Below, one piece after another: positions 49,876 to 60,018 of a DNA stretch of 64,000 nucleotides. Under the pieces are notes generated by a model, which saw nothing but the letters and a program-made list of their open reading frames with translations, did no database searches and was not told the origin of the DNA. Position 1 is the first letter of the stretch. Every line of letters begins with the position of its first letter. Position numbers and translations under genes: made by a program. Source of the stretch: Cyanobacteria bacterium FACHB-502 (GTDB taxonomy: Bacteria; Cyanobacteriota; Cyanobacteriia; Elainellales; Elainellaceae); contig JACJNZ010000014.1 in NCBI GenBank assembly GCA_014695325.1, positions 168,102-232,101 on the forward strand, read 5' to 3'.

Positions 49876-50499
49876 TATCCTCCTCCCTTTTCATCGTCCT
49901 CGATGGCTTGCTTCTCAGATGCTTCGCAGTTTCCCTTGTGGGGTAATTGCTTCCCTTATTGTTCAGAGTTTATGCGACGAAAAACACTGCCAGAGGGAAG
50001 ACGTGCAAGCTCTTTGATAACCCACTAAGAGGACTGTCTGAGGAAACGGTGACTGCAATTTTATTCGGCGATCGATCATCAATAAATCATCAATGAATTA
50101 TCAATAGAATATGTATAGTTTCTGCTGCCACATTAATAATTGGTAATTTATTGATACCTTGACTTGAATTTATTTATTAGAGTCATCACAAAAAAATCAA
50201 TTTTGTCTATCTATTATTGTTGGTATATCAGTATATTTTGCCTTCGATTGGGGTTAACGAATCACCCAAAAATTTTCTGAAAGTCACTTTTGCATAAATT
50301 TAGTGAATTTTAATCAAGCAATAGGGTTTACAGACTATTGATGATTATCTGTAAGTTGATGATTGTCTGTAAACATAGCGATCGTTTCTCTGGCGATGCG
50401 TTTAGTTGGGCAATCGAGAGATGCAGTAGGGTAGGGAGTTGAACCTGACCATCTACCTGGTCGATCGCCTGCTGTGCGTCAGAAGAAATTCAAGACAAA
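49876..50499. repeat. AT-rich 0.6-kb intergenic region with repeats
   Basis: The second copy of the dispersed repeat ATGCTTCGCAGTT ... GGGGTAATTGC is at 49919-49950. ATCATCAATAAAT-type repeats lie at 50075-50106. An 18-bp unit (TTGATGATTRTCTGTAAR) is tandemly duplicated at 50338-50355 and 50356-50373. No coding frame supported. Confidence 0.65.
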
Positions 50500-51267
50500 C
50501 TATGGAGAAGACGGAGAAGAGTTTGGAGAAGGACTCGGAGCGGCTGGACTTGCAGGAGACGCTTCAGGACTCGGAGAACTTGCCGAACTCGGTGATGCAT
50601 CAGGGGATGGATCAGGTGACGGCTTTGGAGATGCTTCAGGACTCGGAGAAGATGCACCGGGAGATGGGCTGGGAGACGCTGCGGGTGCAGCCTGCTTTTC
50701 CGCTGCTGTTTGTTTCCATTCTGCTAAAGGACGATTGACTGCATTCTCAAAGCTGGGAGAAACCAGGCTTACTTTTAGATCGGCATTGGCGTCGGTGGAT
50801 GGATCAGCTAGCGCGTAGAGAAAACTGCGGTTAAAGTCATATTCCCCTACAATCAGGCGATGGGTTTCCTGGTTGTCGAGCGTGACTTCGATCGCTGCAA
50901 ACGGCTGATGAAATCCATACTGTTCTCGCTGTGCTGCCGGAACTGTAAACGTCCGATCGCTCGTGCCCGATGTCATTAGATCCAGCAGAAAGGCGATCGA
51001 GGCGGCACTGGCAGGGGTTTGTTCAGGTTGCTGCATTTGCCAGATTCCCTCAGCGTCACGCTCAAACTTAAGCGACCGAAGGGGCGTCGTGAGCGACAGC
51101 GTTTTAACCTGCTTTTCGGTGAAGGCAAAGAGATCGCTAGGTTCGCTCTGGGAAGCCTGCTGACCCTGTGATTGATTTTGAGGCTGATTTTGTACCGCCA
51201 CCAGCGTTACGCCACCCAGCAGTAAAGCAGTGAGCAGCAGCAGAAAAGTAGAGGGTTTGATCTTCAT
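50500..51267 (-). CDS. DUF4340 domain protein with Ser-Pro tail
   Basis: A 255-residue protein. N-terminal hydrophobic segment STFLLLLTALLLGGVTLVAVQ (signal anchor), then a DUF4340-like domain (FAFTEKQVKTLSLTTPLRSLKFERDAEGIWQM ... AASIAFLLDLMTSGTSDRTFTV ... YGFHQPFAAIEVTLDNQETHRLIVGEYDFNRSFLYALAD). The last 70 residues are almost only Ser, Pro and Ala. It follows the gldG-like gene by 39 bp in the same direction, completing a four-gene set (ATPase, permease, GldG-like, DUF4340) that recurs as an uncharacterised ABC-type system in bacteria. Probably periplasmic and membrane-anchored. Confidence 0.85.
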   Translation of the reverse strand: MKIKPSTFLLLLTALLLGGVTLVAVQNQPQNQSQGQQASQSEPSDLFAFTEKQVKTLSLTTPLRSLKFERDAEGIWQMQQPEQTPASAASIAFLLDLMTSGTSDRTFTVPAAQREQYGFHQPFAAIEVTLDNQETHRLIVGEYDFNRSFLYALADPSTDANADLKVSLVSPSFENAVNRPLAEWKQTAAEKQAAPAASPSPSPGASSPSPEASPKPSPDPSPDASPSSASSPSPEASPASPAAPSPSPNSSPSSP

Positions 51268-51306
51268 TGCTTCTGCAAGTTCAAGGAATCGGATCTTAGA
51301 GAACAG

Positions 51307-53061
51307 TTATCGCCGCTTCCACCACACCAGTCCGGCAGCAGCAAAAGCGATCGCAGGCAGCAGCGCAAGCGCAGTTCCGGCGGCAGACATCTGCTGTTGA
51401 GGAGACATCACAATCCGGCGATTTTTCACTTCTCGCGGACGAATCGCCAACACCTGATCGTCTTGCTGACTCAGCCAGCCCAGCGAGTTCAAAAACACAT
51501 CGCTGTTAAGCTGCTGGGCAAATACGCCGTCTGTTGCGAAGCCAGAGTTGCCAATCACCACCAGGCGAGATTGTCCCTTATTTTCGCTGGCTGCTGGATT
51601 GGGGCTGGGACTGGCTGCTGGACTAGGGCTGGCTTCCGGGCTAGGACTCGAACTGGAACTGGCACTGGCTTCCGGGCTAGGACTGGCACTGGGGCTGGCA
51701 CTGGGACTGGCACTGGGACTGGCACTAGGACTGGCACTGGGGCTGGGACTGGGACTCGGAGCAGGGCTTGGAGCTTCTGCCTGTACCCCCCGGCTCAGGG
51801 CATAGCCGATCGCAAATGGACCCTTTGGATCGGTCGCTGCATCGAACTGAAGTTCACCATTTTCGGCAACGCGCTGGGCGGTGGTGCGATCGCTGGTAAT
51901 CAGAAGACCCGTGGCTTCGATGCCCTCGACCTGCCGCTGCTGCACCGGACGCGCTAGAGGATAAAAGGAAATGCCGTTGCCAAAGCTGCGTGTGATCGGA
52001 TGATCGCCATATTGATTAATAATCGTCACGCCCGGACCCAAGCCAGAAGCTTCTCCGGCGGGGTCAATGACAATGCGATCGCTCATCTGAAGTCCCCACT
52101 CCTCCAGCAGCGGATTGAGCTTGGGGTCGGTTTGCGGATCGATCAGCAGCATTAAGCCGCTCTTGCGCTTCAGATACTCCCTGAGGGCTTTGACTTCTGA
52201 TTCGATCAAGGGACGCTGGGGACTGGCAATTACCAGCACAGCAGCATCTGCCGGAACCTGCGGGTTTTCTGCCAGGTTGAGCGGCGCGCCTTCATAGGCT
52301 TCTTCAGTAAGCCGCTGGGATGCCTGCAAAAAGCCGCCCTGTCCTGCTTCTAGCTTGCGTTCACCGTGTCCCTGCAAGAAGTAAACCTTTTGCGGCTGGC
52401 TGTTGGTGATTTGGGCAATGCCGTTGGTCAGCCGTCGTTCTGAAAGTTTTTGCTCTGGAGTCACGGTCTGCACAGGTCGGCGGTTCGTTCCCGATTCAAC
52501 AAATACATCGCCGATCGTCTGCACTTTGTATTCTCGCGCCAGTCCCGGTTCGCGCTGGGGGTCGATGTACTGATAGCTGAAATTAGAGTTGATTCGCCGA
52601 TAGTTATCGAGCAACTGCTGATCGATCGGATTGGGTGTGGGCGAAAAAATCGTGGCTTTAACGGGCTGTTGAAGCTGCTGCGCGATCTCCTGCGACTGAG
52701 GAGCAAGGGTAAAAATCTGGTTTTCCGTCAGGTCAACCCGGCTGTTAAACCGCACTGCTAGAAAGTTCACCATGCCCAAAATGGCTAAAACGGCAAGGGC
52801 AGACAGCAGCGCATTGGTGCCAATTTGAGTCGATCGCCTACCCCAAAAATTTGGCTGCTGATAAATCAGAAATACTAGCCACAGTCCGAGGAGAACAAAT
52901 CCAGCGATCATTAGTCCAGATGGAATGCCCGCCCAGTTTCCCGCTACGATTCCTGCGGTCGCACCCACAATCATCAGCACAGGACCAAGCCAAAATAGCC
53001 ACTTGAGATGGTTCCAGTTCAGTTGCTTCCAGTTCAGTCGTTTTGTCAGCTTCATGGACAT
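51307..53061 (-). CDS. GldG-like ABC system protein with Ser-Pro-Ala repeat insertion
   Basis: A 584-residue membrane protein. Two or three N-terminal helices (WLFWLGPVLMIVGATAGIVAGNW, GLMIAGFVLLGLWLVFLIY, ALLSALAVLAILGMVNFLAV) precede a large extracytoplasmic GldG domain (SRVDLTENQIFTLAPQSQEIAQQLQQPVKATIFSP, VYFLQGHGERKL, AVLVIASPQRPLIESEVKALREYL, GLMLLIDP) and a C-terminal helix (GTALALLPAIAFAAAGLVWWKRR). A low-complexity run of about 60 residues of SPSPSASPSA type sits in the extracytoplasmic part (DNA about 51590-51775) and is coded by a 12- to 18-bp tandem repeat. Partner of the ABC permease and ATPase upstream. Confidence 0.85.
   Translation of the reverse strand: MSMKLTKRLNWKQLNWNHLKWLFWLGPVLMIVGATAGIVAGNWAGIPSGLMIAGFVLLGLWLVFLIYQQPNFWGRRSTQIGTNALLSALAVLAILGMVNFLAVRFNSRVDLTENQIFTLAPQSQEIAQQLQQPVKATIFSPTPNPIDQQLLDNYRRINSNFSYQYIDPQREPGLAREYKVQTIGDVFVESGTNRRPVQTVTPEQKLSERRLTNGIAQITNSQPQKVYFLQGHGERKLEAGQGGFLQASQRLTEEAYEGAPLNLAENPQVPADAAVLVIASPQRPLIESEVKALREYLKRKSGLMLLIDPQTDPKLNPLLEEWGLQMSDRIVIDPAGEASGLGPGVTIINQYGDHPITRSFGNGISFYPLARPVQQRQVEGIEATGLLITSDRTTAQRVAENGELQFDAATDPKGPFAIGYALSRGVQAEAPSPAPSPSPSPSASPSASPSASPSASPSASPSPEASASSSSSPSPEASPSPAASPSPNPAASENKGQSRLVVIGNSGFATDGVFAQQLNSDVFLNSLGWLSQQDDQVLAIRPREVKNRRIVMSPQQQMSAAGTALALLPAIAFAAAGLVWWKRR
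51590..51775. repeat. Coding minisatellite for a Ser-Pro-Ala linker
   Basis: Tandem GGACTGGCACTG / GGGCTGGCACTG-type units within the gldG-like gene encode PSASPSAS repeats. The period is a multiple of three, so copy-number change keeps the frame. Confidence 0.85.
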
Positions 53062-53135
53062 CTGAGGAAATAGGGAGAGACAGAGAAATAAACCTGTTTG
53101 TATGGATGAGCCGGAGGGAAACTGCGATCCCCCAA

Positions 53136-53936
53136 CTAGCTACGCTGGAATCGAAATGCCTCGATCGACTGTGCCGTGAGAAATAGCCCCAGCACAATGT
53201 AGCTGAGAAACACAATCAAGCTACTGCTGTCTACAATGCCCTGCGTCAGGTTCGTGTAGTTTTTCACCAGAGACAGATGACCCAGCGCATTACCTACTGG
53301 ACCACCGATCGCGTTAGCGACCAGATCTACGACCCATAGGAGCAAAATCAGCCCGAACGTGAGAATTGCCGCCAGAATTGTGCTGTCCGTCAGCGAAGAG
53401 ATAAACATCCCCAGCGACAAAATCGCCGCCCCCATCAGAATCAGGGCAAAGTGGCCCAGCAGCATCACCGTGGGCGACACAGGCGGGTCAGCAGCACTCA
53501 GGGCGATCGCTTGATACACTAGCAACGGCAGCACCAGCGTTGTAAAAAACGTGACCACGCCCAACAGCTTGCCCAGCGCGACCGCCCAGTTTGTTACCGG
53601 AGAAGTTGCTAGAAGTTCGATCGTGCCCCGCTTGCGCTCTTCGGTGTAGAGCCCCATCGACAAAATCGGCAGCACAAACAGAGCCAGCGAGCCCAGTACC
53701 CCCAAAAACACCGTGAGAAACTGATAGGCAACGTCGATCGGCGGTTCTGTAATTCCTACCTGATCGCGCACTGCTACTTGAGCAATTAACCCTTCGGGGC
53801 TAAGCAAAATCGACACAAAGAAAAAGCCGCTCAGCAGCCAGAACACGCCTGCAATGATGTAGGCAAAGGGAGAAGCAAAATAGCTTTGCAGTTCCCGCCG
53901 ATAGATTGCGATGATGTTGCTTAATACGATTCCCAT
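53136..53936 (-). CDS. ABC transporter permease, GldF type
   Basis: A 266-residue permease with six helices. It starts IIAIYRRELQSYFASPFAYIIAGVFWLLSGFFF, the conserved opening of ABC-2 GldF-like proteins, and continues GLYTEERKRGTIELLATSPVTNWAVALGKLLGV, the coupling-helix region. No signal peptide. It lies 12 bp after the ATPase gene and 74 bp before the GldG-like gene, in one operon. Substrate unknown: in Bacteroidetes the Gld set serves gliding; here that role cannot be assumed. Confidence 0.9.
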   Translation of the reverse strand: MGIVLSNIIAIYRRELQSYFASPFAYIIAGVFWLLSGFFFVSILLSPEGLIAQVAVRDQVGITEPPIDVAYQFLTVFLGVLGSLALFVLPILSMGLYTEERKRGTIELLATSPVTNWAVALGKLLGVVTFFTTLVLPLLVYQAIALSAADPPVSPTVMLLGHFALILMGAAILSLGMFISSLTDSTILAAILTFGLILLLWVVDLVANAIGGPVGNALGHLSLVKNYTNLTQGIVDSSSLIVFLSYIVLGLFLTAQSIEAFRFQRS

Positions 53937-53948
53937 TGCCGCTTCTCC

Positions 53949-54974
53949 TTATATCGCCGTACCCGTTGCCGAATTAGACTCGCTCTGTGCTGCTGCTTCT
54001 CCGAGGGCTTCTTCTGAAATCGTTTCTTCGGTCGTCAGTTCCAAAAACACTTCTTCCAAACTCACCTGCACTCGCCGCATTTCGTGTAGCCCCCAGCCTG
54101 CGGAGACGATCGCCGCTGCAATATCGCGTCCTACATGATGTCCAGCCTGGAGTTCTGCGTCTAATGTCAGACGATATCGGCGGTGCGTCCCCGGTAAAGC
54201 CTCGTCTGCAATGACCTCAACTGCATTAATCGGGGGCAACTGCTGAAGCTGCTGCTGGATCAAAAGTGGATCGCCTTCGACCTCTAGCTCATAACCCGCC
54301 CCGCCCGTGAGCTGTGCCATGAGCTGATCGGGTGTGTTCATCGCGACTACCTGCCCCCGGTTGATAATTGCCACCCGGCTACAAGTCATACTTACTTCTG
54401 GCAGGATATGGGTCGAGAGAATAATCGTATGCTCTCCCGCCAGGCTCTTAATCAAATTGCGAACTTCGATAATTTGACGGGGATCAAGCCCAACCGTGGG
54501 TTCATCTAGAATAATCGCGGGCGGATCATGCACGATCGCCTGGGCAATGCCGACTCTCTGACGAAATCCCTTCGACAGCTTGCGAATTAAAACCTGTCGC
54601 TTGTCCAACAAGCCGCACCGCTTCATTGCTAGCTTTACCCGCGTGGGACGATCGCCTGCCGAAACCCCCTTAAGCCGACCGACAAAATTCAGATAGCCCT
54701 CCACCGACATATCCGGGTAGAGCGGCGGATTTTCGGGCAGATAGCCAATGCGCTGACGCACTGCCATCGAGTCTTCATGCACCTCAAAGCCAGCAATTCG
54801 GGCTGTGCCGCTGGTCGCAGGCAAATAGCCTGTCAAAATTCGCATCGTCGTGGTTTTCCCGGCTCCGTTTGGTCCCAGGAAGCCCAGAATTTCGCCTTTC
54901 TCCACGGAAAATGTGATGTCCTGGATCGCGGAAGTCGTGCCGTAAATCTTACTCAGATGGTCTGCTTCAATCAT
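53949..54974 (-). CDS. ABC transporter ATP-binding protein, GldA type
   Basis: A 341-residue ATPase. Walker A LGPNGAGKTTTMRILTGYL, Q-loop GYLPENPPLYPDM, signature LSKGFRQRVGIAQAI, Walker B AIILDEPTVGLDP and switch His in ILSTHIL. The C-terminal 100 residues are an extra domain typical of ABC-2/GldA proteins (ELEVEGDPLLIQQQLQQLPPINAVEVIAD). ATG 54974 (MIEADHLSKIYGTT) is preferred; upstream codons come from a short tandem repeat (GCTTCAGATGG). First gene of the four-gene Gld/DUF4340 operon. Confidence 0.92.
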   Translation of the reverse strand: MIEADHLSKIYGTTSAIQDITFSVEKGEILGFLGPNGAGKTTTMRILTGYLPATSGTARIAGFEVHEDSMAVRQRIGYLPENPPLYPDMSVEGYLNFVGRLKGVSAGDRPTRVKLAMKRCGLLDKRQVLIRKLSKGFRQRVGIAQAIVHDPPAIILDEPTVGLDPRQIIEVRNLIKSLAGEHTIILSTHILPEVSMTCSRVAIINRGQVVAMNTPDQLMAQLTGGAGYELEVEGDPLLIQQQLQQLPPINAVEVIADEALPGTHRRYRLTLDAELQAGHHVGRDIAAAIVSAGWGLHEMRRVQVSLEEVFLELTTEETISEEALGEAAAQSESNSATGTAI

Positions 54975-55512
54975 TCTGCTTTTGTTGTGCTTCAGATGGT
55001 TCTGCTTCAGATGGCTTGCTTTGGTTATTCTGCTGCAATCATAAGCGACATGATCGGGAGGGTCGGAGATCGCCAATTCAGGTCAATTCGCATTTGTTCG
55101 GCATCTATAAGGAGATTTGAGAAGGGTTCCAGGTTCTGCATTGTCCCCTAAATTCCTGACAGGTGGGAAACTTTGAGCGTTAAAACCGATCGGCTCGGTT
55201 TTCCTAGAATTAGGGGTTAGGGGGGCGGATCGAGTTGCAGATACAACGCTTCAAACATCCTCTTTAGACGGAATTCTCCAGAAATTCCCTGAAATCTTCC
55301 CGGAAAAGAACTGCACCGCTAATCATAAGGCGATCGGACAAGTTCTAACCAAAGGGAATCCAACCGTGTCAGATCTTAACGATATTTTCCTGCAGTTGAC
55401 TTGACGAAGTTTTGATAACTTTGTTACGATTAGCAATAGAATAAAGTATTCTTAACACAAGTTCGCAGCGCAAGCTTGCAACACAAGTTCGCAGAAAGGA
55501 TCTTCTTTTCCT
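54975..55512 (+). promoter_or_regulatory. DAHP synthase upstream region: direct repeats and candidate promoter
   Basis: Between divergent operons. A 15-bp direct repeat AACACAAGTTCGCAG occurs at 55454-55468 and 55480-55494, 26 bp apart centre to centre, just ahead of the first leader ORF, possibly an operator. A candidate promoter TTGACG (55401-55406), 18-bp spacer, TACGAT (55425-55430) precedes it; TAGAAT at 55437 is an alternative -10. The start site is not determined. Confidence 0.4.
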
Positions 55513-55575
55513 ATGGGTCTGGCAAATCAGTCTTACTTTTATTGGTTTAGCTTTACCACGGCTCACCGGGGGTAA
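55513..55575 (+). CDS. Aromatic-rich leader peptide 1 of the DAHP synthase attenuator
   Basis: A 20-codon ORF whose centre reads Tyr-Phe-Tyr-Trp-Phe-Ser-Phe (codons 55534-55554): six aromatic codons in seven. AAAGGA lies 12 bp upstream of the ATG. The codons just after the cluster contain CGGCTCA (55559-55565), which is perfectly complementary to TGAGCCG at 55602-55608, overlapping the 5' arm of the following terminator. Ribosomes stalled at scarce aromatic aminoacyl-tRNA would leave CGGCTCA free to pair and block termination; ribosomes reaching the stop would cover it. It probably has no function as a peptide. Confidence 0.85.
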   Translation: MGLANQSYFYWFSFTTAHRG

Positions 55576-55605
55576 TTCCACTCAGTTAGGGAACCTCTCG
55601 ATGAG

Positions 55606-55638
55606 CCGCAGAACTTGAAAGTCTGCGGTTTTTGTTTT
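55606..55638 (+). terminator. Attenuator terminator 1
   Basis: Perfect 7-bp stem CCGCAGA (55606-55612) / TCTGCGG (55622-55628), 9-nt loop, then TTTTTGTTTT. Alternative pairing of 55602-55608 with 55559-55565 in the leader ORF would prevent the stem. Confidence 0.9.
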
Positions 55639-55685
55639 ATCTAGCTTCTTCGATTAATCACACTCGATTCGCACCGATGACGACT

Positions 55686-55745
55686 ATGCCCTACACTGTT
55701 TGGTTTTTTGGCTTTTACTTTTGGACCAGGCTCACGTCCGGGTAA
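55686..55745 (+). CDS. Aromatic-rich leader peptide 2 of the DAHP synthase attenuator
   Basis: A 19-codon ORF with Tyr at codon 3 and a run Trp-Phe-Phe-Gly-Phe-Tyr-Phe-Trp (55701-55724): eight aromatic codons of 19. An in-frame ATG at 55677 could extend it by three codons. Its last codons and stop include TCCGGGT (55737-55743), a perfect complement of ACCCGGA (55771-55777), the 5' arm of the second terminator. The geometry is the same as in leader 1, though sequence outside the aromatic run is unrelated, so the two attenuators look like functional repeats rather than a recent copy. Confidence 0.85.
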   Translation: MPYTVWFFGFYFWTRLTSG

Positions 55746-55770
55746 AGTCGTCATGCAAAAGTCGAACCCT

Positions 55771-55801
55771 ACCCGGACAGCCTCAAGGCTCCGGGTTTTT
55801 T
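55771..55801 (+). terminator. Attenuator terminator 2
   Basis: Stem ACCCGG (55771-55776) / CCGGGT (55791-55796) with inner stem AGCCT/AGGCT, followed by TTTTT and TAATG. Antiterminator: 55737-55743 with 55771-55777. Confidence 0.9.
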
Positions 55802-55847
55802 AATGCTCCTTCAGTCCCATCTCTCACTCAATCCCCAAAACTCCACC

Positions 55848-56708
55848 ATGCAGAAAGCAAAACTTGTCCTCAAAACTTCCGCTCAGCCTCAAACAATCGT
55901 CCATTTAAGCGAAACTGTCACCGTTGGCGGTTCTGATTTGCTGATTGTCGGCGGACCCTGTGCCGTCGAAACCGCGGCACAAATGGAAGCAGTCGCCTGT
56001 CGCCTCGCTACGGGTCCAATTCAGGCAATTCGCGGCGGGGTGTACAAGCCCCGGACTTCGCCCTATGACTTCCAAGGACTCGGCATCGAAGGGCTGAAGA
56101 TTCTGGCATCGGTGCGCGATCGCTACGGACTGCCTGTGATTACCGAAGTGATGGCAATTTCCCAAATCGAAGAAATCGCAGCTTATGCCGATGTGCTTCA
56201 GGTTGGCAGCCGCAATATGCAAAATTTCGATTTGCTCAAGGCACTGGGACAGGCAAACAAGCCGATTCTGCTGAAGCGCGGTTTGGCAGCGACGATCGAA
56301 GAATTCGTCATGGCAGCCGAATACATCATGAGCCACGGTAACCCGAACGTCATCCTTTGCGAGCGCGGCATTCGCAGTTTCGATACCTACACTCGCAACG
56401 TGCTGGATCTGGGTGCAGTCGTCGCATTGAAGCAAATCACTCACCTGCCCGTGATCGTTGACCCTAGTCATGCTGCCGGAAAGCGCGAACTCGTTCCCAA
56501 TCTAGCAAAAGCGGCGATCGCTTGCGGTGCAGATGGCATTATCGTTGAGTGCCACCCGGAGCCGGAGCAGTCTGTTTCGGATGCGCGTCAGGCACTTTCG
56601 CTTGAGGAAATGGTGAATCTGGCGCGGAGTCTGGAGCCGATCGCTCAGGCTGTGGGTCGTACGATAGTTTCTGGAACCGGGAATGTACCCCGGTTTTCTT
56701 TTGTCTAA
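55848..56708 (+). CDS. aroF: 3-deoxy-7-phosphoheptulonate (DAHP) synthase, type I-beta
   Basis: A 286-residue aldolase-fold enzyme that joins PEP and erythrose-4-phosphate, the first step of the shikimate pathway to Phe, Tyr and Trp. Motifs: LLIVGGPCAVET, GGVYKPRTSPYDFQG, LQVGSRNMQNFDLLKALG, KPILLKRGLAATIEEFVMAAEYI, NVILCERGIRSFDTYTRNVLDLGAV, LPVIVDPSHAAGKRELV and ADGIIVECHPEPEQSVSDARQ. No ACT or chorismate-mutase regulatory domain is present, so feedback is likely weak, and the two upstream attenuators may be the main control. ATG 55848 is preferred over 55803, which lies at the base of terminator 2. A terminator hairpin overlaps its last codons. Confidence 0.95.
   Translation: MQKAKLVLKTSAQPQTIVHLSETVTVGGSDLLIVGGPCAVETAAQMEAVACRLATGPIQAIRGGVYKPRTSPYDFQGLGIEGLKILASVRDRYGLPVITEVMAISQIEEIAAYADVLQVGSRNMQNFDLLKALGQANKPILLKRGLAATIEEFVMAAEYIMSHGNPNVILCERGIRSFDTYTRNVLDLGAVVALKQITHLPVIVDPSHAAGKRELVPNLAKAAIACGADGIIVECHPEPEQSVSDARQALSLEEMVNLARSLEPIAQAVGRTIVSGTGNVPRFSFV
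56675..56705 (+). terminator. Intrinsic terminator inside the 3' end of the DAHP synthase gene
   Basis: AACCGGG (56675-56681) / CCCGGTT (56689-56695), 7-nt loop, then TTCTTTTGT. The hairpin codes for GTGNVP and the T-tract for the last residues; the stop codon is at 56706-56708. Confidence 0.85.
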
Positions 56709-56742
56709 ATCGCTTTTGTCCAAATCGCTTTTGTCTAAATTT
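56698..56742. repeat. 15-bp tandem repeat, three copies
   Basis: CTTTTGTCTAAATCG at 56698-56712, CTTTTGTCCAAATCG at 56713-56727 and CTTTTGTCTAAATTT at 56728-56742, beginning inside the final codons of the DAHP synthase gene, so each copy brings the T-rich end and the stop. Confidence 0.9.
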
Positions 56743-56925
56743 CTCTTGCTCAAAAACAACTGCCAGAAATAACGAAATGAAGGACGTAGGGCGATCCATC
56801 TCTGTCTGAATTAAGATGCGGAGCGATCGCAACACTGATATCCTACTGAGAGTTTGCAGGGTTGGATTTGAACGATATCTGACACTCTGCGCCTCGCCCA
56901 AACGCTTCAACTCGCCCCTTTCGGC

Positions 56926-58167
56926 ATGATTGACTTCGGTAAATTAATGCACCAGCAAGCCGATACCATTGTTCAGCAGTGGGTCGAAGCGGTGCGTCAG
57001 GATGAGCAAATTCAAACTACTGGCGAACTCACCTACAAAGCCATTCAAAATAGCTTGCCTAAAGTGCTAAATGCGCTGGCAACGATTTTGTCTGAGGAAG
57101 AACGCAGCGACGTGCAAACCCTGATCGAAACAACGCTAGAACATGGCATAGTCCGGGCGGATCAGGGGTTCGATCCGGGTGAGATTGCGCGGGAATATCG
57201 CCTGCTGCGATCGATTATTTTTGAGGTGATTGAAGCCGAGCTGCTTCAAGCTTCGGCTGCCGAACTGCTGCGTGCGGTCAGGTTAATTGACACGGTGATT
57301 GATGAGGCGATCGCCCGCTGCTTTCAAAGCTATACCGAGAGTCGGCTGCATGAGTTAGAGCAGCTTCAAAGTCAGCTTAAGTTGACGAATCAGGAATTGA
57401 CCCGCCTCGTTCGCGCCAGCAAAGCTAATCTTTCAGAGCTTGCCCATGAGCTAAGAACGCCCCTCACTTCGATTATTGGCTACTCGGATCTGTTTTTGCG
57501 GCAGCATCGACAGGACGGTAGCACCAGAGACTCGGTTCCTAATCTAGAGAGTATCGATCGTGTTTTACAGGCAGGACGACAGTTGCTCCGCCTGATCAAT
57601 GATTCGCTGGAAATCTCGCGCTACGATGCAGGACAAATGCAGCTTCAGCTCAGTCCGGTGAATATTTGTGAGCTGGTGCAGACGACGGTGGACATGGTGC
57701 AACCTCTGGTGGCGGCTAGAAATTTACAGCTCCAGTTTGACTGTGATCCCGCTCTAAATCATATTTTGACTGATTCTCTACGGCTTCAGCAAATCGTCAC
57801 TAATCTGCTGAGCAATGCCATTCGCTACACCGAGCAAGGTGAAATTCATGTCATTTGTCGGGCGGAGGCGATCAATCTCCTAAAAGGGAAAGCGGATTCT
57901 CCCTGTTGGAGCCTGACAGTTGCAGATACCGGGTTGGGCATTGCCTCAGAGGAGCAGCAGCGCATTTTTGAACCCTATGTACAAAGCAATTTGCAGAAGC
58001 TCCGCGACAGCGAAAGTACGGGGTTGGGATTGGCAGTTGTTTCCCGATTGGTGAAGCTGTTCCAGGGCGAAATTCACCTCGAATCTCAGTTCGGCATTGG
58101 CTCTACCTTTATCCTGACTTTTCCGCTTCTGTCTCCCGATGGCTCTACTTTAGCTTCGATGTCTTGA
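56926..58167 (+). CDS. RsbRD-type N-terminal sensor histidine kinase
   Basis: A 413-residue soluble kinase. Residues 1-140 are helical and resemble the RsbRD/N-terminal helical sensor domain (ADTIVQQWVEAVRQDEQIQ ... LEHGIVRADQGFDPGEIAREYRLLRSIIFEVIEAEL). A coiled segment leads to HisKA with His174 (SELAHELRTPLTSIIGYSDL), then HATPase (IVTNLLSNAIRYTE, VADTGLGIASEEQ, STGLGLAVVSRLV). Related cyanobacterial kinases of this layout act in stress responses, but no partner regulator is adjacent. It overlaps the convergent glycosyltransferase gene by 23 bp. Confidence 0.9.
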   Translation: MIDFGKLMHQQADTIVQQWVEAVRQDEQIQTTGELTYKAIQNSLPKVLNALATILSEEERSDVQTLIETTLEHGIVRADQGFDPGEIAREYRLLRSIIFEVIEAELLQASAAELLRAVRLIDTVIDEAIARCFQSYTESRLHELEQLQSQLKLTNQELTRLVRASKANLSELAHELRTPLTSIIGYSDLFLRQHRQDGSTRDSVPNLESIDRVLQAGRQLLRLINDSLEISRYDAGQMQLQLSPVNICELVQTTVDMVQPLVAARNLQLQFDCDPALNHILTDSLRLQQIVTNLLSNAIRYTEQGEIHVICRAEAINLLKGKADSPCWSLTVADTGLGIASEEQQRIFEPYVQSNLQKLRDSESTGLGLAVVSRLVKLFQGEIHLESQFGIGSTFILTFPLLSPDGSTLASMS

Positions 58168-59953
58168 CCCTGCCGCGACAGCGATACATCCGATAACGGT
58201 ATCCATCAACTGATTCTGGCTCTGTTTTTGCCGCACAACGCTGCTTTTTAAGCACTCGATCGACTAACCCTGGCTCTACCTCATGAAAATTAATTAGCCA
58301 TAGATCGATCGGTGTTGTGACTTCGCTTAAAGTTTTGTCCAATGTTTCTGCAACTGTGCTGGTGCTGCGCGGAGTATCGTGCGCCAGAAGAAACCGCAGA
58401 TCGATCGGCAGCGTTTTTCCTGCTGAAGTCGCCTGGGAGCCAGCCTGTTCAACTGCCAGAGCAACTCCCATCAACCGCCCGGTTTGCCCATGGGTGCGGT
58501 GGGGAATCGCAATCAAAGTGCTCTGCGAGGAGTGCCGCAGAATATCCTGTGCAACCACATCCGGGCGATGAACTTTTTGATAGCCCAAATTGAAAACAAC
58601 GGTCAGTCCACCGACTAGACTCAAAAGCCCGATTAAAAGAATGGTTTTGCGTCTACTTACGCGCAGCAGCTTGAGTAGGGCGATCGACACTTGATCAGCA
58701 CGGGTTTGGGCAATCTCACGAACAACATTCCACCCTGCCGCCAGACCTGCCGCGATCAGGGCAACCGTCCCCGGAAAGTAAACAAAGTTGTAGCGAAACG
58801 CGCCGGTCAACTCTGCCTCAAAAAGATAGGTGATGCTAAAGAACAGTAAAATTGCACTGATGACAAAGCAGCCCAGCACCCAAACGGAAAGTCGGGTATC
58901 CCGATCGACACACTGCACGTTTAGCCCCCAGAAGACTTTGGGCAGTGTCCACAGGGTCAACATCAACAGCCCTGCTCCCGATAGGACAGCGATCGTCTCT
59001 GAAGGGGACTGGATTGGTAACAGATAAATCATCGAAATCCAGCCTGCCACTGCCTGACCGACCGGCTCTAACCAGGCAAATCCACTGCGCTCGCCTCGAT
59101 AAATCCAGCGCGTTAGCTCCCCATCCTGAATATTCAGCAGCACCGGAAACCAAACGATTCCCGTGCCCGCAGTTCCGGCTGCCACAAGCCAGATGCGTTG
59201 CCAGTGGACTGAAGGATGCCAGATTCCTCCTTCTCGCCAGCTCTGCACCAATCCCAGACAGGCAATGACGACGGCTTCGGCAATCAGGGTAAAGGTAAAA
59301 AAGTAATGGCTCGCAATGCCCAACCCGTTGATCAAAATCCAAACCCAGCACACCCAGTAGGGCAACGCAATCCGATCGCGAATCGTGCGGGTAGCCACAA
59401 TCAAACAGCAAAGGGAAGCAATAATCCAAAGAATTGGCAGCGTATAGTGCCGCGCTTCTTGAGCGAGATAAACGGCAAACGGTGAAACTGCCATCAGCCC
59501 GGCTGCTACCTGTCCCACAATCCGCGATCGAAACGCCAGCCGGCCTAGCCAATAACTTGCCGGAATCGAAGCAACGCCAAACAAAACCGACAGTGATCGA
59601 GCTGCCCAGGCGGAAACCGTTCCAAGCTGATTCGTCGGAAAAAGCTTCAGCCAAAAGTGGCTCAGTATGAAATACAGGGGCGGATGGTTACTCTCGCTCA
59701 GCAGCGATTGCACGACCTGATCCACGCCGGTTCTAGATTGCGGGCGCAGGGGCTGCAAAAGCTGATCGGCTGTAATCACCTGATCGAGCGGCACGGTCAA
59801 AAAACGATTGCCCAGGCTAAAGACGATCGTAGAAAACTCATCTGTCCAGAGCGGCTTTGCAGCAAGCTGAATCAGACGCAAACCCAGCCCCAATGCTATT
59901 AGAAACAGCAAAAGCCAGAGATGCTGCCGACCATGATTAAACGCCGCTTTCAC
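58145..59953 (-). CDS. GT39-like membrane glycosyltransferase
   Basis: A 602-residue GT-C protein with roughly 10-12 transmembrane helices. Family marks: KPLWTDEFSTIVFSLGN (Asp-Glu in the first external loop) and SNHPPLYFILSHFWLKLFPTN (second loop, PPLY motif), as in ArnT/PMT-type enzymes using polyprenyl-phosphate sugars. A soluble C-terminal domain follows the last helix (STLIAIPHRTHGQTGRL). Acceptor unknown. It is followed upstream by the class V aminotransferase gene, 65 bp away on the same strand, possibly co-transcribed. Confidence 0.85.
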   Translation of the reverse strand: MKAAFNHGRQHLWLLLFLIALGLGLRLIQLAAKPLWTDEFSTIVFSLGNRFLTVPLDQVITADQLLQPLRPQSRTGVDQVVQSLLSESNHPPLYFILSHFWLKLFPTNQLGTVSAWAARSLSVLFGVASIPASYWLGRLAFRSRIVGQVAAGLMAVSPFAVYLAQEARHYTLPILWIIASLCCLIVATRTIRDRIALPYWVCWVWILINGLGIASHYFFTFTLIAEAVVIACLGLVQSWREGGIWHPSVHWQRIWLVAAGTAGTGIVWFPVLLNIQDGELTRWIYRGERSGFAWLEPVGQAVAGWISMIYLLPIQSPSETIAVLSGAGLLMLTLWTLPKVFWGLNVQCVDRDTRLSVWVLGCFVISAILLFFSITYLFEAELTGAFRYNFVYFPGTVALIAAGLAAGWNVVREIAQTRADQVSIALLKLLRVSRRKTILLIGLLSLVGGLTVVFNLGYQKVHRPDVVAQDILRHSSQSTLIAIPHRTHGQTGRLMGVALAVEQAGSQATSAGKTLPIDLRFLLAHDTPRSTSTVAETLDKTLSEVTTPIDLWLINFHEVEPGLVDRVLKKQRCAAKTEPESVDGYRYRMYRCRGRVKTSKLK

Positions 59954-60018
59954 GCTACGCGGGCTCCTTTAATGCGATGACTGCCCCAACCATGAAAACT
60001 TTTCCTGAAACTTCTCCC

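Follow-up and report, generated by a model that had tools for sequence, protein, structure and literature searches.

How might a cyanobacterium adjust entry into the shikimate pathway when the enzyme at that entry carries no regulatory domain? The question is raised by aroF, a gene for 3-deoxy-D-arabino-heptulosonate 7-phosphate (DAHP) synthase on contig JACJNZ010000014.1 of Cyanobacteria bacterium FACHB-502. The stretch analysed, 64,000 nucleotides (nt) long, is called the window below, and all coordinates refer to it. Short DAHP synthases of this kind are generally described as insensitive to aromatic amino acids. The window AroF matched Pfam family PF00793, with a weaker overlapping NeuB match; the ferredoxin-like domain PF18152 was not found in it by Pfam, in agreement with an original prediction, made from the DNA letters, that the enzyme has no visible regulatory domain. 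Its best match among solved structures was the short DAHP synthase 1vs1. Comparison of related loci indicates that the 5' leader of aroF very probably holds two trp-type, ribosome-mediated transcription attenuators, one after the other, a device that would supply transcriptional feedback to an enzyme without the known regulatory domain.

Two small open reading frames (ORFs) rich in codons for phenylalanine (F), tyrosine (Y) and tryptophan (W) lie ahead of aroF (Table 1). When ORFs measuring 8-60 codons from their first ATG, GTG or TTG were scanned for aromatic runs, these two were the only ones on either strand of the 64-kb window with at least six F/Y/W codons in seven. Leader ORF 2 has an in-frame ATG at 55677 as a possible other start. 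Each leader is followed by a terminator-like hairpin, and each leader end can pair with a strand that overlaps the 5' arm of that hairpin. The original prediction had described both leaders with their aromatic codon counts, and both hairpins with their T-tracts, and all of these were reproduced in the window sequence. It had further described two perfect alternative pairings of 7 base pairs (bp); their positions held and their length was understated. In antiterminator 1, 7 bp (55559-55565 with 55602-55608) are followed by a C-A mismatch and then by five pairs, two of them G-U, and antiterminator 2 consists of nine perfect pairs (55736-55744 with 55770-55778). The overlap between antiterminator and terminator amounts to four nucleotides in attenuator 1 and nine in attenuator 2. 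Folding of the 395-nt leader region gave z = -3.1, and none of 100 shuffles folded equally well. A promoter and terminator consensus scan (loop 3-8) picked up neither terminator, and an Rfam scan of 50000-60000 returned zero matches up to E = 1, amino acid leaders, T-boxes and riboswitches included.

Table 1. Features of the aroF leader region, in window coordinates
Feature	Position	Strand	Evidence or remark
Predicted promoter: TTGACG, 18 nt, extended -10 TGT-TACGAT	55401..55430	+	Consensus scan and conservation
Leader ORF 1, MGLANQSYFYWFSFTTAHRG	55513..55575	+	6/7 core codons aromatic; seen in 118/120 loci
Attenuator 1, putative antiterminator 5' strand, at the end of leader ORF 1	55559..55571	+	Sequence, covariation
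Small hairpin within the antiterminator 1 loop, TTCC/GGAA in the window	55576..55593	+	Sequence; weaker support
Attenuator 1, putative antiterminator 3' strand, last nucleotides common to the terminator 1 5' arm	55596..55608	+	Covariation, folding
Predicted intrinsic terminator 1, CCGCAGA/TCTGCGG stem 55606-55628, T-tract to 55638	55606..55638	+	Sequence, covariation
Helix P1 5' strand, start region of leader 2	55677..55685	+	Folding; own-versus-swapped pairing
Leader ORF 2, MPYTVWFFGFYFWTRLTSG	55686..55745	+	8/19 codons aromatic; seen in 118/120 loci
Attenuator 2, putative antiterminator 5' strand, at the end of leader ORF 2 and reaching into the stop codon	55736..55744	+	Sequence, covariation
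Helix P1 3' strand	55746..55754	+	Folding; own-versus-swapped pairing
Attenuator 2, putative antiterminator 3' strand, also the terminator 2 5' arm	55770..55778	+	Covariation
Predicted intrinsic terminator 2, CCCGGA/TCCGGG stem 55772-55795, T6 to 55801	55772..55801	+	Sequence, covariation
aroF, DAHP synthase, type I-beta catalytic domain only, 286 amino acids; presumed controlled gene	55848..56708	+	TIGR01361, NF006421; PF00793 without PF18152

The arrangement was then compared across related loci. The set comprised the best 80 of 505 loci from named genomes (Oculatella, Elainella, Leptolyngbya, Nostoc, Calothrix, Scytonema, Oscillatoria and Microseira among them) and loci from other genomes of the phylum. 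Removal of duplicates left 114 loci, and leaving out three with less than 100 nt of upstream DNA (L036, L046, L068) gave a first set of 111. With nine further loci (L141-L149, which contain no duplicates; L140 duplicates L022), the set reached 120 non-redundant loci with upstream DNA, all closer relatives of the window AroF at about 70% identity or more. Both leaders were present in 116 of the 120, and leader 1 preceded leader 2 always, before a short AroF, in these cyanobacterial loci. In the first set leader 1 was found in 109/111 loci (not in L026 or L139) and leader 2 in 111/111; among the nine further loci the counts were 9/9 and 7/9 (leader 2 not in L145 or L148). Leaders missed by the motif filter were placed by hand (leader 1 in L020, L031, L045, L108, L116 and L125; leader 2 in L020, L051, L056, L062 and L139). 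An ATG lies 17-22 codons ahead of the leader 1 stop in 109/109 loci and 19-25 codons ahead of the leader 2 stop in 99/111, the others having another start or no identified one. Encoded motifs such as YFYFWF..VHRE and WFYGFYFWPRxSSG are strongly conserved. All three kinds of codon, F, Y and W, occur in 107/109 leaders 1 and 108/111 leaders 2, and across the two leaders together in all 109 main-set loci that have both.

The paired strands vary in a concerted way. Alignments of attenuator 1 (A1; 109 rows, 104 of them distinct) and attenuator 2 (A2; 111 rows, in which L121 was entered without the terminator 3' arm and counts as gaps there) were compared with shuffled controls. Over distinct rows, antiterminator 1 was paired in 91.3% of cells, with two-sided changes in seven of its 12 pairs and 56 such cells against 16.5 after shuffling; for terminator 1 the values were 93.7% and 18 against 4.9, for antiterminator 2 91.0% and 40 against 11.7, and for terminator 2 94.2% and 56 against 16.6. 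When the partners were slid by 1-3 columns, only 14-63% of cells in these four main helices remained paired, and the covariation score was lower every time. The small hairpin in the antiterminator 1 loop was paired in 75.7% of cells over the 104 distinct rows, and its double-change pairs were reached in 471 of 500 shuffles.

A promoter-like site upstream of leader 1, absent from the original prediction, is shared as well. Such sites are expected by chance at 1.5 per shuffle. The pattern TTGACn-N17/18-TGnTAnnnT was present upstream of leader 1 in 105/109 loci, against 1/109 in a control stretch, and its end lies 81-163 nt ahead of the leader 1 stop. A search for a second promoter between the attenuators spoke against one, the strict pattern being found in 0/109 loci from the first stop to 30 nt before the second (105-331 nt) and a looser -35/-10 pattern in 5/109 between the leader stops, against 109/109 upstream of leader 1. 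The strict pattern was also found in 0/111 loci between leader 2 and aroF. Since there is one conserved promoter-like site and no strict one between the gates, both gates are most likely read in series from one transcript. The original prediction had proposed to look among relatives for conserved leaders and paired segments and for compensatory changes in the stems; the leaders are conserved and two-sided changes occur in both antiterminators and both terminators. These observations support the trp-operon-type logic that it had put forward, and the single promoter-like site supports action in series.

The element is closely tied to this type of aroF. Covariance models were built for attenuator 1 (R1) and attenuator 2 (R2), and each had a single match in the window, at 60.9 bits for R1 and 58.9 bits for R2 (next best 10.3 and 10.1). 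They were then run against 386 genomes of the phylum under strict filters, with scores for each genome's 12 best candidates. R1 gave 38 matches of 55.4-95.1 bits, the next being at 28.5. Thirty-seven of these matches sit in the 38 genomes with this type of aroF (all but G188): 36 end 72-345 nt ahead of the aroF match and one, in G423, lies before the start of a split aroF; the last R1 match, in G086, is ahead of a decayed aroF. R2 marked aroF in 37 of the 38 genomes (not G161), although one of these matches (G137, 30.5 bits) is at background level, weak matches elsewhere reaching 31.5 bits or less. In seven of the loci L141-L149 (L142 and L143 left out), which took no part in model building, R1 found 7/7 and R2 5/7. 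Neither model matched 28 loci with longer, domain-length enzymes more often than by chance. In the genome of the window itself, no aromatic leader was found within 700 nt upstream of pheA, of two tyrA-like genes or of the genes for three chorismate-binding enzymes; one stretch with five aromatic codons in nine (L202) overlaps a gene start. AroF is not the sole DAHP synthase of that genome: a second one (L180, contig 55; a 380-amino-acid frame with PF00793) is class I-alpha by appearance, with no aromatic leader found within 500 nt upstream, and a search for a class II enzyme in the same genome returned none.

Decay of this aroF was noticed in two genomes. In G086 (L187, contig 48) an aroF remnant is fused to attenuator 1, and in G423 (L151/L188) several kb separate both attenuators and the start of the gene from the remainder of aroF. 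The DNA separating attenuator 2 from aroF in L188 is filled with short direct repeats of the CCCAATGCC/CCCAATTCC kind; such repeats also take up the short upstream DNA of L036, L046 and L068, at contig ends. In the window, an in-frame ATG upstream of aroF would add 15 residues to AroF (55803-55847), directly after terminator 2; relatives align from 55848.

Is it the RNA or the peptide that has been preserved? Among changes in the core aromatic codons (stop-12 to stop-7 of leader 1, and stop-14 to -12 and -10 to -7 of leader 2, counted back from the leader stop), 168 of 180 row-changes one base off the consensus were synonymous or swapped F, Y and W; these are rows, not events, and larger changes lie outside the count. 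Such interchange suits a putative sensor of the whole aromatic pool. In three loci (L116 and L125 for leader 1, L056 for leader 2) the ORF stops ahead of the pairing strand, and the strand and its partner are nonetheless retained; the strand thus appears to be selected as RNA. In the codon, ribosome and P1 analyses the conserved end of the pairing strand stood in for the leader stop in these three loci and in L051, L062 and L139.

The position of the control codons was examined in a model in which a ribosome was assumed to cover 12 nt beyond the first base of its A site and the RNA downstream was folded. Aromatic codons occupy stop-12 to stop-7 of leader 1 in 79-99% of rows, and 2% of rows at stop-6; in leader 2 they occupy stop-14 to -12 and -10 to -7, with a gap at stop-11, in 86-97% of rows, and 7% at stop-6. 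Before the terminator 3' arm is made, antiterminator 1 was paired at 0.94-0.96 with the ribosome at stop-12 to -9, and at 0.05 with the ribosome at stop-6. For antiterminator 2 the corresponding values were 0.85-0.94 at stop-14 to -7, 0.56 at stop-6 and 0.09 at stop-5. In this model, the aromatic codons would end about where a stalled ribosome starts to cover the antiterminator strand, and they would be placed so as to leave that strand free on stalling, with a borderline case at the last two of leader 1. At equilibrium, the window RNA itself favoured the antiterminator, at 0.70-0.74 for leader 1 (stop-13 to -9) and 0.96-1.00 for leader 2.

The two units differ in a third helix, P1, which the original prediction did not contain. 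P1 has 9 bp (55677-55685 with 55746-55754), and in attenuator 2 each row's own strands paired better than swapped ones in 88/99 rows (mean -13.5 versus -9.9 kcal/mol). The same comparison for a P1-like helix in attenuator 1 found own pairs stronger in 49/109 rows, which gives no support for one there. When the window was folded with no ribosome present, attenuator 2 formed P1 and the terminator, and attenuator 1 formed the antiterminator and a shortened terminator hairpin. P1, found only in gate 2, is predicted to close that gate when leader 2 is untranslated, and we infer that in the untranslated state gate 2 would fail shut and gate 1 would fail open.

With ample charged tRNA for Phe, Tyr and Trp, a ribosome would reach the leader stop and hide the antiterminator 5' strand, so that the terminator would form and transcription would end. 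Were any of the three scarce, the ribosome would stall on the aromatic codons and leave that strand free; the antiterminator would then form first and RNA polymerase would read through. Because the polymerase would have to pass both gates, leakage would be multiplied and basal expression of aroF would be very low; as the original prediction also proposed, relief of both gates may be required and the response may be sharp.

A number of observations weigh against two such attenuators or against the proposed switch. Four of the 120 loci carry a single attenuator. Leader 2 of L051 and L062 lacks an in-frame stop where one usually lies, although the pairing strand is retained. The ribosome model is least favourable at the end of leader 1, where antiterminator 1 is partly or mostly blocked at stop-8 (0.66) and stop-7 (0.38), positions that are aromatic in most rows, and where the antiterminator does not win in the window at equilibrium either. 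Over the aligned rows at full length and equilibrium, the shared nucleotides of attenuator 1 were split about evenly with the ribosome at stop-12 to -9, and in attenuator 2 the terminator won on average (0.56-0.78). Since the antiterminator does not win on average at equilibrium, the mechanism needs to give it a head start, as co-transcriptional folding would. Covariation in attenuator 2 is also less clear by some measures: the number of antiterminator 2 pairs with double changes (four) was matched in 223 of 500 shuffles and its pair types in 80 of 500; for terminator 2, double-change pairs were reached in 19 of 500 and pair types in 81 of 500; and one slid version of antiterminator 2 contained 34 double-change cells against 40 unslid. 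Finally, both the shuffle and the slide controls leave relatedness among the rows in.

These points bear on the possibility that one attenuator, probably the first, is regulatory and the second a redundant or constitutive terminator. The covariation statistics of attenuator 2 are weaker than those of attenuator 1, two loci have lost attenuator 2 and two attenuator 1, and relatives outside the class, described below, carry a single leader. On the other hand, leader 2 has been kept as widely as leader 1, and an antiterminator paired in 91% of cells is needless for a constitutive terminator; we hold a single working gate to be unlikely. In a second alternative the leaders would act on translation and not on termination: ribosomes translating the leaders would feed translation of aroF by coupling or re-initiation. 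Enhancement of translation by leader genes has been proposed before, in a 2016 paper (PMC4833913), and the leader 2 stop lies upstream of aroF in 111/111 rows. The intervening 74-300 nt (median 109), however, are far over the 10-11 bp at which that proposal has its peak, and that paper reports no such peak in cyanobacteria (PMC4833913). Against coupling also stand the covarying terminator-like hairpin with its T-tract after each leader and the antiterminator strand that is retained even where the ORF stops ahead of it; we give it very little credence.

The conservation of the two peptide motifs could also mean that each leader yields a small peptide that has a function or arrests the ribosome, and that the sequence of this peptide itself matters. 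Yet F, Y and W interchange at most core positions, the conserved ORF ends coincide with paired strands that show compensatory substitutions, and early stops in three loci remove those ends from the peptide while the RNA is retained. We consider this the least probable of the three alternatives, and two ribosome-mediated attenuators in series remain the reading that we prefer.

Does the leader take the place of a regulatory domain? The longer DAHP synthases provided a comparison: 28 loci with frames of 344-423 amino acids, from which all eight enzymes tested (L192-L199) carried PF18152. Four stretches with five aromatic codons in nine were found in these loci, distributed over three of them. 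Two (L163, L179) showed no leader-like arrangement near the gene. The third (L154/L199; G055, contig 15) encodes a DAHP synthase of 341 amino acids with PF18152; upstream lie one aromatic leader, MKNSQFWYSFTFRSATGVRHRSG, and then, about 160 nt ahead of the gene, a strong terminator-like hairpin. A strict rule, by which a domain-bearing enzyme has no leader, is broken by this locus, which has both. Outside the class, but within the phylum, 29 genomes around G384 yielded nine loci with short aroF (L206-L214; 55-63% identical), apart from three more matches of 54-57% that were not counted; five of the nine enzymes were checked as ORFs and measured 279-289 amino acids. A single F/Y-rich leader was present in eight of the nine (L206-L210, L212-L214). 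A script recognised a terminator-like hairpin in four of these, and inspection by eye showed one in the other four; L211 had no leader. None of nine domain-length relatives outside the class (L215-L223) had such a leader, two of them having a 5-of-9 stretch with no leader-like arrangement. In sum, an aromatic leader precedes 128 of 129 short enzymes and one of 37 domain-length ones, points that are not independent of one another. By eye, a tyrA-like frame follows aroF in three (L206, L208, L209) of five outside-class loci checked.

It is conceivable, though we put it forward only tentatively and think it doubtful, that the leader serves as an RNA regulatory domain in place of the allosteric one that AroF lacks, with two differently wired gates. 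Gate 1 would respond to starvation only, and gate 2, through the P1 lock, also to ribosome initiation, so that the pair would act as a coincidence gate for 'aromatics short and translation running', its leakage multiplied. On this view attenuator 1, shared with relatives outside the class, would have come first and attenuator 2 would have been added afterwards. The odds for this reading are reduced by the domain-bearing L154, which also has an aromatic leader. A hint that attenuator 1 is older comes from the outside-class single leaders, whose terminator core, ACCGC, resembles attenuator 1 by eye.

Parts of this design are familiar. The trp, his and phe leaders of E. coli contain control codons, an intrinsic terminator and a competing antiterminator, with a stalled ribosome as the switch. 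By analogy, the aroF leader would combine the same components, with codons for the product, and P1 of attenuator 2 may act much as the trp 1:2 pairing does. The aroF leader differs from those of E. coli in having two full units in series, in mixing Phe, Tyr and Trp codons and in being cyanobacterial. The eight outside-class loci likewise have a short DAHP synthase behind an aromatic leader ORF and a terminator-like hairpin, whose ACCGC core looks similar by eye; they differ in having one leader, and of the eight leader cores that of L210 alone contains a Trp codon. In the mgtCBR leader of Salmonella, two short ORFs in one mRNA leader are described as tandem attenuators responding to ATP and proline (PMC3641672). 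The aroF leader would resemble it in having two short ORFs as predicted attenuators; it is unlike mgtCBR, as portrayed there, where the signals differ and the stem-loops are not intrinsic-terminator-like, in that its two gates share a codon class and each has a terminator-like hairpin (PMC3641672). Judged by codon content, the two aroF leaders would answer one class of signal, unlike those of mgtCBR. In Acholeplasma, the uORFC-13-1 motif upstream of aroF consists of a leader with one or more Phe codons and a terminator, with 24 examples and attenuation proposed (PMC8632094). A leader ORF with Phe codons and a terminator ahead of aroF is common to both; uORFC-13-1 has a single leader and belongs to another phylum (PMC8632094), whereas the locus described here has two, with abundant Phe, Tyr and Trp codons. 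For cyanobacteria, the 2016 paper speaks of 'no reliable data' for attenuation (PMC4833913). Among the matches listed in full-text searches, from which subscription journals are mostly absent, no title or abstract opening described this aromatic attenuator pair. Trp-type logic is established, and tandem leader attenuators are already known.

Strong comparative evidence for the pair comes from genera ranging from Leptolyngbya to Nostoc. Leader-peptide control would here act on the entry step of the shikimate pathway, the source of the aromatic amino acids and of products such as scytonemin (PMC7997468). If the proposal is true, loss of both terminators is predicted to raise flux. The near-complementary occurrence of the leader and the FXD domain offers a concrete, testable case in which feedback at the RNA level may have replaced allosteric feedback, and serial attenuators that share one input would lend themselves naturally to asking how successive termination steps determine dynamic range.

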